A stretch of DNA of 64,000 bases from Synechococcus sp. PROS-9-1 (GTDB taxonomy: Bacteria; Cyanobacteriota; Cyanobacteriia; PCC-6307; Cyanobiaceae). Where the stretch lies: assembly GCF_014279775.1 (NCBI RefSeq), contig NZ_CP047961.1, positions 2,108,001 through 2,172,000 on the forward strand. The letters run 5' to 3'. Both the position numbers and the translations under genes were made by a program. A model generated the notes under the pieces. It was not told the origin of the DNA and made no database searches. It saw only the letters and a program-made list of their open reading frames with translations. This document shows, piece by piece, positions 40,548-44,957 of the stretch; position 1 is the first letter of the stretch, and every line of letters begins with the position of its first letter.

Positions 40548-42323
40548 ATGGCCACCTCAAGCTTGAAGCCATCAGTGACTGCGTCAAGCACCAGTCCGAG
40601 GCTCTCCCTTCAATCGGAAGTGATTGCGGCTGACAGCAGCACGATTCGTTCCCTCGACTGGGAGCGAAGCCGTTTCGATATTGAATTTGGCCTGCGCAAC
40701 GGCACCACTTACAACGCCTTTCTAGTGCGGGGTGACCGCACCGCCCTGATTGACACGAGTCACGCCAAATTTCGCGACACCTGGCTGCCGCTTCTGAAAG
40801 AGCAAGTCGATCCGCAACAGATCGATTACCTGATCGTGAGCCATACCGAACCGGACCACTCAGGACTGATTGGAGACCTGATTGACCTGAACCCTGAGAT
40901 CGAAATTGTTGGATCCAAGGTGGCGATTCAATTCCTCAAAGACCAGGTCCATCGGCCGTTCCGCTCCCGAGCCGTCAAAAGCGGAGAAGAGCTTGATCTC
41001 GGCATCAATCCTGAGAGCGGCGTGCAGCATCGCTTTGAGTTTTTAAGTGCACCCAACCTGCACTGGCCGGACACAATTTTTTCGTTTGATCACGGCAGCG
41101 GAATCCTCTACACCTGCGATGCCTTTGGGCTGCACTACTGCTCAGAAGACGTTTTTGATAGCGATCCTGGCGCGATTGCACCGGATTTCCGCTTCTACTA
41201 CGACTGCTTGATGGGGCCCAATGCCCGCAGCGTGCTTCAAGCCCTTAAGCGTATGGATGGTCTGCCCGAGATCAACACGATCGCGGTAGGTCATGGCCCT
41301 TTGCTTCGCCATCACCTCAGCCACTGGATCAACGATTACCGCGAATGGAGCGGGCAACGCAATAAAGGCGAGAGTTACGCAGCCGTTTGTTATTTGAGTC
41401 AATACGGCTTCTGTGATCGGCTCAGTCAGGCGATCGCCCACGGCATCGGCAAAACCGAGGCCCAGGTTCAACTTGTTGATCTACGTGCCACCGATGCCCA
41501 AGAGCTCACAGCCCTGATCAGCGAAGCCAAGGCCGTGGTGGTTCCCACCTGGCCAGCGAACGCAGATGCTGAGCTGCAAAGCAGCATTGGAACCTTGTTG
41601 GCTGCCTTAAATGGCAAACAGCTGGTGGGCGTTTACGACGCCTTTGGTGGAGATGACGAGCCGATCGATTCCGTGGCCGTACAACTACGCAGCCAAGGAC
41701 AGAAGGAGGCCTTTTCACCCCTGCGCATTCGCCAGCTTCCTTCAGGTGGCGACTATCAGCGCTGCGAAGAATCAGGCACCGACCTAGGCCAACTCTTAAC
41801 GCGCGACAAAACGATCGCAGCAATGAAGAGCTTGGATGGCGATCTCGACAAAGCCCTAGGCCGTCTCAGTGGCGGGCTTTATGTGGTCACGGCCAGCCAA
41901 GGCGACGGTGAAAGCCTGCGCCGTAGCGCGATGGTGGCGAGCTGGGTCAGTCAGGCCAGTTTCAGTCCACCAGGCATCACCGTGGCCGTGGCCAAAGACA
42001 GGGCGATCGAGGCTCTGATGCAGGTTGGCGACAAATTTGTGCTGAATATTCTCCGAGAGGACAACCATCAACAACTTCTCAGGCATTTTCTTAAACGCTT
42101 CCCGCCCGGCGCCGACCGTTTCGCTGGCATCAATGTGCTGGAGGCGGAAGCCGAGGGTGGCCCCGTTCTCGGAGATGCACTGGCCTACCTGGGCTGCCGC
42201 GTGGAACAACGCATGGAAGGCCCCGATCACTGGGTGATCTATGCCGTGGTGGAACAGGGGAACGTGGCCGATGCAAACGCCATGACCGCCGTCCATCACC
42301 GCAAAGTGGGGAATCACTATTAA
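40548..42323 (+). CDS. flv3: flavodiiron protein Flv3
   Basis: Reduces O2 to water with electrons from the photosynthetic chain (Mehler-like reaction), as a heterodimer with Flv1. 591 residues: a metallo-beta-lactamase-like diiron domain (about 30-270) with the full ligand set in SHTEPDHSG, APNLHWPDT, YTCDAFGLH and VGHGP; a flavodoxin domain (about 280-425); and the cyanobacteria-specific NAD(P)H:flavin oxidoreductase module (about 440-591, MVASWVSQASFSPPGITVAVAKDRAIEAL). Intact ligands assign it to the Flv3/Flv2 class; pairing with the Flv1-type gene next door makes Flv3 the better name. Its stop codon shares one base with the flv1 start. Confidence 0.94.
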   Translation: MATSSLKPSVTASSTSPRLSLQSEVIAADSSTIRSLDWERSRFDIEFGLRNGTTYNAFLVRGDRTALIDTSHAKFRDTWLPLLKEQVDPQQIDYLIVSHTEPDHSGLIGDLIDLNPEIEIVGSKVAIQFLKDQVHRPFRSRAVKSGEELDLGINPESGVQHRFEFLSAPNLHWPDTIFSFDHGSGILYTCDAFGLHYCSEDVFDSDPGAIAPDFRFYYDCLMGPNARSVLQALKRMDGLPEINTIAVGHGPLLRHHLSHWINDYREWSGQRNKGESYAAVCYLSQYGFCDRLSQAIAHGIGKTEAQVQLVDLRATDAQELTALISEAKAVVVPTWPANADAELQSSIGTLLAALNGKQLVGVYDAFGGDDEPIDSVAVQLRSQGQKEAFSPLRIRQLPSGGDYQRCEESGTDLGQLLTRDKTIAAMKSLDGDLDKALGRLSGGLYVVTASQGDGESLRRSAMVASWVSQASFSPPGITVAVAKDRAIEALMQVGDKFVLNILREDNHQQLLRHFLKRFPPGADRFAGINVLEAEAEGGPVLGDALAYLGCRVEQRMEGPDHWVIYAVVEQGNVADANAMTAVHHRKVGNHY

Positions 42324-44152
42324 TGGCGACATCCAACCTCGAGGCCCCTGCAGCAGCGACCCGGCAAGTGATCAGCCTGCCCATCGATGAAGGACTCACT
42401 TGCCTGCGGGGGCTGAGTCCCCAACGGCTCCGATTCGAATTGGAATATGCGCTGGAACGGGGCAGCACCGCCAACAGTTTTCTGTTTGATGCCGGCACGG
42501 ATCGCGAAGGTCAGCACCAGGCCGCACTGCTCGTGCATCCTCCCGGCAAGGCTTACGACAAGGCCTTCCTCACGGCTCTTGCTGGTCTCCTTCCAGCCCA
42601 AACCACTGCACTCAAGGTTGTCGTTGGCCACGTCAACCCCAACAGGGTGGCACTACTGCGTGATCTTGCAGGCCTGTATCCCGAGCTCGAACTGATTGCC
42701 TCCAACGCTGGAGCCAAGCTCCTGGGGGAACTCTGGTCACAACGCAAACCTGCAGCGCCAGGACAGGAGAGCGAACAGCCAGCCATCCCCGACCTGCCGC
42801 CCATCCAGGTGATCCGCCAAGAGCAAACCCTGTCTCTCAGTCGTCACCACCAGCTTCAACTCGTTCCCGCTCCCACCCCCCGATGGCCCGGGGGCCTGCT
42901 CGCGTTTGAAGAGTCCATCGGACTTCTGATGAGCGGCAAGCTGTTTTCGGCGCACATCTGCACTCATGAATGGGCTGAGTCCGGACGCAGTGCAACGGAA
43001 GAAGAGCGGCGTCACTTTTATGACTGCCTGATGGCACCGATGGCGGGCCAAGTGGACTCGCTTGTGGAGCGTCTGGAAGAGCTGGACATCACCACGGTGG
43101 CGCCCGGCCACGGTCCAGCCATCGACACCAGCTGGCGCAGTTTGTTCAATGACTACCGCCGCTGGGGAGAAAGCCAACAGCAAGCCAGCTTGTCTGTTGC
43201 ACTGCTCTTTGCCAGTGCTTACGGAAACACGGCTGCCATTGCTGATGCCTTAGCTCAAGGTGTTGGTCGTACTGGGATTCGCATTACCAGCCTCAATTGT
43301 GAATTCACACCTCCTGACGAACTCATCAACACGATCAACCAAGCAGACGGCATTTTGATCGGCTCACCAACGCTTGGTGGCCATGCGCCAACGCCAATCG
43401 TCTCGGCTTTGGGGACGCTTCTTGCCGAAGGAGACCGCAGTAAACCCGTGGGCGTGTTTGGCAGCTTTGGCTGGAGCGGTGAAGCCATCGACCTGCTGGA
43501 GAACAAGCTTCGAGACGGCGGATTTCACTTTGCGTTCGAGCCGATCCGAGTGAAATTCAGCCCCGATGCAGCGATGATTCAAACCCTCGAAGAAACCGGC
43601 ACCCGATTTGGTCGCGAGTTGCATCGAGAGCAACGCAAACAGCAACGTCGCAGCGGCGGTGGACTCAGTGAAAGCCGCAGTGACCCTGCCGTGCTGGCCC
43701 TGGGTCGGGTCGTGGGATCTCTCTGCGTTCTCACCGCCCGAAAGGGTGAGCTCTCCGGCGCCATGATTGCAAGCTGGGTCACCCAAGCCAGTTTCACTCC
43801 TCCGGGATTCACCGTGGCAGTCGCCAAGGATCGAGCCGTTGAGGCCCTCCTGCATATCGGCGATTGCTTCGCCTTGAACGTGCTCGCCGAAGGGCGCGAG
43901 AGCGGGCCCATGAAGCAATTCCTCCAACCGTTTGAGCCGGGAGCTGATCGCTTTGCCGGCCTGGAATTGAAGGCCACTCCAAGTGAACAGCCCTTACTCC
44001 CAGACGCCTTGGCGTGGATGGAAGCAACGGTGAAGCAACGCATGGAATGCGGGGATCACTGGCTGATTTACGCCGAGGTCTCCCATGGAGGCGTGCTCGA
44101 TTCCGAAGGCGGTACCGCAGTGCATCAGCGCCGCAGTGGCGCGAATTACTAA
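42323..44152 (+). CDS. flv1: flavodiiron protein Flv1
   Basis: Partner of Flv3 in light-driven O2 photoreduction. The same three modules are present in 609 residues, but the diiron ligands are mostly replaced: GHVNPNRVA stands for HTEPDHSG, APTPRWPGG for the His loop and MSGKLFSAH for the Asp loop, with only APGHGP retained. Such substitution is the hallmark of Flv1/Flv4. The flavodoxin domain (SVALLFASAYGNTAAIADALAQGV) and reductase module (MIASWVTQASFTPPGFTVAVAKDRAVEAL) are intact. TAATG overlap with flv3 implies coupled translation. Confidence 0.94.
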   Translation: MATSNLEAPAAATRQVISLPIDEGLTCLRGLSPQRLRFELEYALERGSTANSFLFDAGTDREGQHQAALLVHPPGKAYDKAFLTALAGLLPAQTTALKVVVGHVNPNRVALLRDLAGLYPELELIASNAGAKLLGELWSQRKPAAPGQESEQPAIPDLPPIQVIRQEQTLSLSRHHQLQLVPAPTPRWPGGLLAFEESIGLLMSGKLFSAHICTHEWAESGRSATEEERRHFYDCLMAPMAGQVDSLVERLEELDITTVAPGHGPAIDTSWRSLFNDYRRWGESQQQASLSVALLFASAYGNTAAIADALAQGVGRTGIRITSLNCEFTPPDELINTINQADGILIGSPTLGGHAPTPIVSALGTLLAEGDRSKPVGVFGSFGWSGEAIDLLENKLRDGGFHFAFEPIRVKFSPDAAMIQTLEETGTRFGRELHREQRKQQRRSGGGLSESRSDPAVLALGRVVGSLCVLTARKGELSGAMIASWVTQASFTPPGFTVAVAKDRAVEALLHIGDCFALNVLAEGRESGPMKQFLQPFEPGADRFAGLELKATPSEQPLLPDALAWMEATVKQRMECGDHWLIYAEVSHGGVLDSEGGTAVHQRRSGANY

Positions 44153-44181: not shown

Positions 44182-44218
44182 CTAGCGCTAACTCATAGCG
44201 AGTATGAGATAGCGCTAG
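44182..44218. promoter_or_regulatory. 37-bp dyad (candidate operator) upstream of rubrerythrin
   Basis: Arms 44182-44197 and 44203-44218 pair at 15 of 16 positions around a 5-nt centre; the only mismatch is 44191/44209. Each outer arm contains TAGCGCTA, itself an 8-bp palindrome, and the inner arms are CTCATA/TATGAG. It ends 25 bp before the rubrerythrin ATG and 29 bp after the flv1 stop. No T run follows, so a protein-binding operator is more likely than a terminator. I do not match it to a known regulator box. Confidence 0.75.
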
Positions 44219-44243
44219 TATCAAATGATCGACCAAGGAGCCA

Positions 44244-44957
44244 ATGGATCTTTCCAAGCCGTACACCCAGGCCAACATCGAAGCTGCCTTTGGCGGCGAA
44301 AGCATGGCCAATCGCAAATACCTGTTCTTTGCCGATGTCGCCAAGAAACTCGGTCGCACCGATCTCGCCAAGCTCTTCCGCGACACCGCCGCCCAAGAAA
44401 CAGAGCACGCGTTTGCTCACTTCCGCCTGCTCCATCCGGAGCTCGTGTTCAGCGACCCCAGTGCACTCAGCGACGACGACAAACAGGCCTTGCTCACGCG
44501 CTGCCTTGAGCTTGCCATCGAAGGCGAAACCTACGAATACACCACCATGTATCCGGAGTTTGCTGAGCAAGCCCGCAACGATCGCGATCACGGAGCTGAA
44601 GCTGAGTTCAACGAACAGACCAGCGAATCCAAAGATCACGCGGGCATCTTTAAAACAGCTGCCAAGAACTTCGGCCTACTCACGCCCATCGAACAGCACC
44701 ATGCCGAGTCGTATGGCGTTGCCCTTGAAGCACTTCAAGGCAAGGGTCAAGCGGGACAGGCCGATGAGCCGGTAGCCGGCAAATGGATCTGCAAGGTGTG
44801 CTCGATGATTTATGACCCTGCTGAGGGCGATCCCGACTCCGGAATTGAGCCAGGCACACCTTTCGAAGCGATTCCAGATGATTGGTCCTGCCCCATTTGC
44901 GGTGTTCGTAAAGCCAGCTTTGTGCCCTATCGAGAAGCGGAATTGAAGTCGGCCTAA
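44244..44957 (+). CDS. rbr: rubrerythrin with C-terminal rubredoxin domain
   Basis: A peroxide-scavenging diiron protein, 237 residues. The ferritin-like part (about 1-165) holds the metal Glu/His motifs [46 protein letters not shown] and [11 protein letters not shown] rubredoxin domain follows at about 178-228 with both knuckles, [38 protein letters not shown], giving its own Fe(Cys)4 electron relay. An AAGGAG ribosome-binding site lies at 44235-44240. It follows flv1 by 91 bp, with a large dyad in the gap suggesting separate control. Confidence 0.95.

Follow-up and report, generated by a model that had tools for sequence, protein, structure and literature searches.

The Slr1738-type PerR of Synechocystis 6803 and Synechococcus 7002 has a Cys4 zinc site. 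In Anabaena sp. PCC 7120, PerR is FurC (alr0957), and the FurC study gives its box consensus as CAAAATCATAACGACTTTG, names prxA, srxA and ntrC among its targets, with CGAACTCATAACGACTACG as the ntrC box, and reports 47 predicted boxes and EMSA binding at 22 of 28 tested promoters (PMC10406281). Previous work on classic Fur and PerR proteins has described overlapping operators built of 7-1-7 heptamers with dimers 6 bp apart, and this shift has been discussed as an arrangement that places two Fur-family dimers on both faces of the helix (PMC3293774). In marine Synechococcus, the role of the third Fur-family protein has been called only 'probably PerR' (PMC9337993).

We analyzed a stretch of 64 kb from Synechococcus sp. 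PROS-9-1, referred to here as the window. Within it, an flv3-type flavodiiron gene (40548..42323, + strand) and an flv1-type flavodiiron gene (42323..44152, + strand) precede rbr (44244..44957, + strand), the proposed regulated gene, which encodes a rubrerythrin of 237 aa with a C-terminal rubredoxin domain. The match of this product to the NCBIfam rubrerythrin and rubredoxin models gave clear E-values, with scores under the curated cut-offs. An FMN-reductase gene lies beyond rbr. The gap between the flv1 stop (44152) and the rbr ATG (44244) is 91 bp, and much of it consists of a near-perfect dyad of 37 bp that starts 30 bp after the stop (44182..44218), CTAGCGCTAACTCATA-GCGAG-TATGAGATAGCGCTAG. 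Its arms of 16 nt each pair at 15 of 16 positions around a centre of 5 nt, exactly as the preliminary description of this DNA had reported. We found no second inverted repeat of equal quality elsewhere in the 64-kb window, and when the window was resampled 100 times under a Markov-1 model, a repeat of this quality appeared in 1 resample. The motif of the outer arms, TAGCGCTA, is found twice in the window, both times inside the dyad; a search for further TAGCGCTA dyads, which had been suggested, returned none, the spaced pair being present a single time in the 2.27-Mb genome. The dyad is real and unique in the genome, and it is unlikely to have arisen by chance.

To compare the dyad with FurC boxes, we built a matrix on the 47 boxes listed in Table 1 of PMC10406281, none of which comes from picocyanobacteria and all of which derive from a single AT-rich species (Anabaena 7120) that is distant from the host. 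With this matrix, positions 44188-44206 ranked first among 127,964 window positions, at 12.3 bits; when the matrix was restricted to the top 12 boxes, they ranked second. The published FurC consensus, allowing up to 5 mismatches, matched the + strand of the 64 kb solely at 44188-44206. Thus, the earlier statement that the dyad matched no known cyanobacterial Fur, PerR or SufR box was wrong, since it matches the Anabaena 7120 FurC (PerR) box. In particular, the core of the dyad agrees with the consensus at 14 of 19 positions and with the ntrC box at 15 of 19.

This core, CTAACTCATAGCGAGTATGAGATAG (44188..44212, + strand), is a predicted double FurC/PerR operator of 25 bp, in which two 19-bp FurC boxes overlap with an offset of 6 bp. 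Box A, CTAACTCATAGCGAGTATG, is the top-ranked site just described (44188..44206, + strand), and box B, CTATCTCATACTCGCTATG, lies on the - strand (44194..44212). Box B is weak in PROS-9-1, at 3.7 bits, and is stronger in many relatives, reaching, for example, 21.2 bits at locus L112. The idea of two stacked operators therefore stands as far as their number is concerned, but they are not an outer TAGCGCTA pair and an inner CTCATA/TATGAG pair; they are the two shifted 19-bp boxes within the 25 bp. Like the Anabaena 7120 boxes, the predicted sites are associated with peroxide-defence targets and lie near a start codon. Unlike them, they form an overlapping pair, shifted by 6 bp, within a longer dyad in a picocyanobacterial host, and the target is rbr, a gene that is not named among the FurC targets in the text of PMC10406281 available to us. 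The classic Fur/PerR overlapping operators share with this locus the two sites, the 6-bp shift and an inferred Fur-family protein, whereas their half-sites, TGATAAT or TTATAAT, differ from the CTAACTC/CGAAGTC seen here.

The core ends ~3 bp before a conserved TANNNT, which in most relatives lies 2-4 nt downstream of the core and resembles a -10 element. In PROS-9-1 this is TAGTAT (44216..44221, + strand), the predicted -10 element of a putative rbr promoter at which no TTGACA-type -35 was found. Because the two boxes are shifted by 6 bp, two dimers may cover the rbr promoter, and we infer two-dimer binding of FurC at the core. Furthermore, the boxes would span the -35/spacer region of this putative promoter, which fits repression by exclusion of RNA polymerase.

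We located rbr in 49 of 149 related genomes and at 80 named loci. We scored 101 regions upstream of rbr; their best box averaged 9.3 bits, compared to -4.8 in shuffles, and in 83 of them it scored above every one of 40 shuffles of the region itself. The two-box arrangement scored above the 99th percentile of shuffles in 66 of 88 non-redundant regions. The core, with the consensus CTAACTCATAnTCAnTCCGACTTAG across relatives, was seen before rbr in marine Synechococcus, Prochlorococcus (MIT 0701 and AG-412-I05), Cyanobium, Vulcanococcus and others, usually ~27-63 bp from the rbr ATG. Even in a distant cyanobacterial family (L220 and L221), a double box precedes rbr, with 22.8 and 17.7 bits. About a quarter of the rbr upstream regions have no recognisable double box, for example that of Synechococcus RCC307 (L160); mis-set starts or other regulators may account for some of these. 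We consider it highly likely that the inner 25 bp serve as an operator through which a FurC-type PerR controls rbr.

The same type of box is found at other genes. A core query (the marine motif with 3 mismatches allowed) was run against 89 relatives. In distant families, its matches adjoin sulfiredoxin genes (L048, L049, L050 and L071), named by eye from their GCHR signature since NCBIfam gave just weak ParB-fold matches; a dps gene is next to the site at L049, L050 and L071, while at L048 sulfiredoxin alone was seen. Other matches lie upstream of a gene for NADPH-thioredoxin reductase C (NTRC; L047), at a distance of 8 bp, and of an FMN reductase gene (L046), at ~110 bp. The genes at these distant matches are peroxide-defence genes. 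In Anabaena, both sulfiredoxin (srxA) and NTRC (ntrC) have been established as targets of FurC. In PROS-9-1 itself, a second site, AGAAGTCGGACCGACTTTG (7.1 bits), precedes the 2-Cys peroxiredoxin gene (prxA) by 49 bp; prxA, too, is an established target of FurC in Anabaena. Related sites at this gene were read directly in two genomes of the same genus (L278 and L299), and in L298 and L300 the peroxiredoxin-gene site is in the opposite orientation. The PROS-9-1 genome as a whole was scored by pattern search only. In a loose genome-wide scan, matches to the true pattern and to a reversed control were equally frequent, and for this reason we put forward only the rbr and prxA sites and leave weaker genome-wide matches uninterpreted. 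The preliminary description had proposed a dedicated redox or peroxide regulator: peroxide or redox control is indeed the best fit, but 'dedicated' has to be dropped given the box at prxA here and at srx and NTRC elsewhere.

To see whether the box belongs to flv1 or to rbr, we can compare loci in which the two genes are apart. At 11 flv1 loci without an adjacent rbr, no box was found after flv1 (best score 4.5 bits), whereas 3 rbr-bearing loci scored alongside them gave 12.3-18.8 bits. In 10 of the 11, the gene after flv1 is the FMN-reductase gene, which in the window stands on the far side of rbr. We conclude that it is rbr, and not flv1, that the box accompanies.

Of the three FUR proteins in the genome, Fur and Zur account for two. 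The third is encoded outside the window, on the minus strand (G000:C1:1336662-1337006); it has no CxxC and groups with FurC-type proteins from across the class (clade support 100/99). Members of this clade likewise lack CxxC and carry the metal histidines His45 and His98 in agreement with the published numbering of Anabaena FurC, and it is on this numbering that the orthology is anchored, the Anabaena protein itself being absent from the tree. Judged by these sequence features, the third protein is the one FurC orthologue of the genome. In PROS-9-1 FurC (L103), the motif SDPHSH of nearly all relatives reads SAPHSH, placing Ala where the conserved Asp stands two residues before His98; given this replacement, the sensor metal site may differ. 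Several clade members have FurC boxes before their own gene (15.0 bits in L227, 14.7 in L234 and 13.6 in L232). A search upstream of PROS-9-1 furC found no FurC box, and we rejected autoregulation of furC in this genome. A Slr1738-type PerR was also considered as the rbr regulator. The PROS-9-1 candidate resembles it in being a predicted Fur-family peroxide sensor, but it lacks CxxC and falls into a separate clade. The Cys4 FUR clade in the tree, which we take to be the Slr1738-type PerR, was not found in the genome, and this candidate was rejected.

It is conceivable that the operator serves another regulator whose site resembles a FurC box, such as SufR, RexT, Zur, Fur, NtcA or an unknown redox repressor. 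Fur and Zur are both present in this genome, and motif matching alone does not reach the identity of a protein. Nevertheless, we regard this as improbable. When the flv1-rbr gap was compared, at tolerant settings, with motifs of RexT, SufR, NtcA, LexA, RpaB, B. subtilis PerR, Zur and Fur taken from publications or textbooks, there were 0 matches, whereas the FurC consensus finds the dyad site, and the other genes at which the motif occurs are FurC regulon members. The rbr operator very probably represents a known class of switch, FurC/PerR, as far as its sequence can tell, and not an unknown regulatory system.

It had been proposed that the reading of the dyad as an operator be checked by its conservation before rbr in relatives. 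The inner 25 bp came through this comparison; the whole dyad and its outer arms did not. In relatives, the outer arms pair at a mean of 1.6 of 6 positions, which is near chance, and the outer TAGCGCTA arms are confined to a close clade and partly broken even there. We therefore rejected the outer TAGCGCTA pair, unconserved in relatives and single in the genome, as an operator. These arms look like a lineage-specific embellishment whose functional role is only putative. At one locus before rbr (L011, ~1431-1474, in G027), we observed a longer, perfect dyad with arms of 19 bp and a centre of 5 nt, which reads as three overlapping FurC boxes in steps of 6 bp.

The pairing pattern also bears on whether the dyad acts as RNA, that is, as a hairpin that ends the flv3-flv1 transcript as a terminator, a stabiliser or an attenuator. 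The dyad strand does fold as RNA (-24.6 kcal/mol, z -3.4), and its position 30 bp past the flv1 stop would suit such a role. However, it has no T tract, which together with a GC-rich stem defines an intrinsic terminator, and the base pairing is not kept: all 10 inner pairs are intact in just 8 of 66 non-redundant relatives, and the outer arms pair at the near-chance level given above. In many relatives, the core is asymmetric, so that the hairpin pairing is broken, yet the half-site sequence is retained (e.g., AACTCATA...CGACTTCG). Half-sites that are kept despite the loss of pairing favour recognition of DNA by a protein and argue against an RNA structure. In addition, the hairpin is missing after flv1 where rbr is absent, and the motif recurs before unrelated genes. 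We consider an RNA role very unlikely. That the palindrome is a functionless product of chance or a mobile, REP-like element scarcely deserves credence: the exact 37-bp form is limited to one clade, but the palindrome is unique in the genome and rare by chance, and the core occupies the same place before rbr across genera.

If FurC controls rbr through the core, one or two metal-loaded FurC dimers would bind there in unstressed cells, on opposite faces of the helix, and FurC bound over the -35/spacer region would keep rbr expression low. H2O2 would then oxidise Fe-loaded FurC by the His45/His98 chemistry proposed for Anabaena FurC, and FurC would leave the DNA. Upon this release, rubrerythrin would be made and peroxide reduced. 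A further suggestion, which we offer tentatively and think rather doubtful, is that the picocyanobacterial two-dimer operator (apparently a three-box one at L011) gives rbr, by its spacing and outer arms, a peroxide threshold unlike that of the single-box prxA, with TAGCGCTA adding a binding or structural element.

With these predictions, rbr and the 2-Cys peroxiredoxin gene become a candidate regulon for the third FUR protein in marine Synechococcus, and the FurC box of the filamentous Anabaena becomes recognisable in picocyanobacteria and in other cyanobacterial families. One gel shift could now test whether rubrerythrin is under peroxide control in this abundant group of the ocean. In the literature searched, which covered few subscription journals, we found no paper describing control of rubrerythrin by FurC, and this is weak evidence that FurC-rbr regulation is novel.

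Several further observations were made in the related genomes. In L276, L284 and L293 (~1501), which are of the same genus and have no full rbr, a strong FurC box of the CGAACTCATAACGACTACG type precedes a PsbQ-like lipoprotein gene that is divergent from a formyltetrahydrofolate deformylase-like gene. Two contigs labelled as Gammaproteobacteria and Bifidobacterium breve MAGs (L108 and L145) bear a picocyanobacterial rbr, and these records are probably mis-binned or mislabelled. Finally, in four distant cyanobacterial genomes (L215, L216, L217 and L218), a gene for a Cys4-type, PerR-like FUR protein adjoins rbr, and no FurC box is found there; judging from gene neighbourhood and boxes, it seems that two different peroxide sensors have come to control rbr across cyanobacteria.
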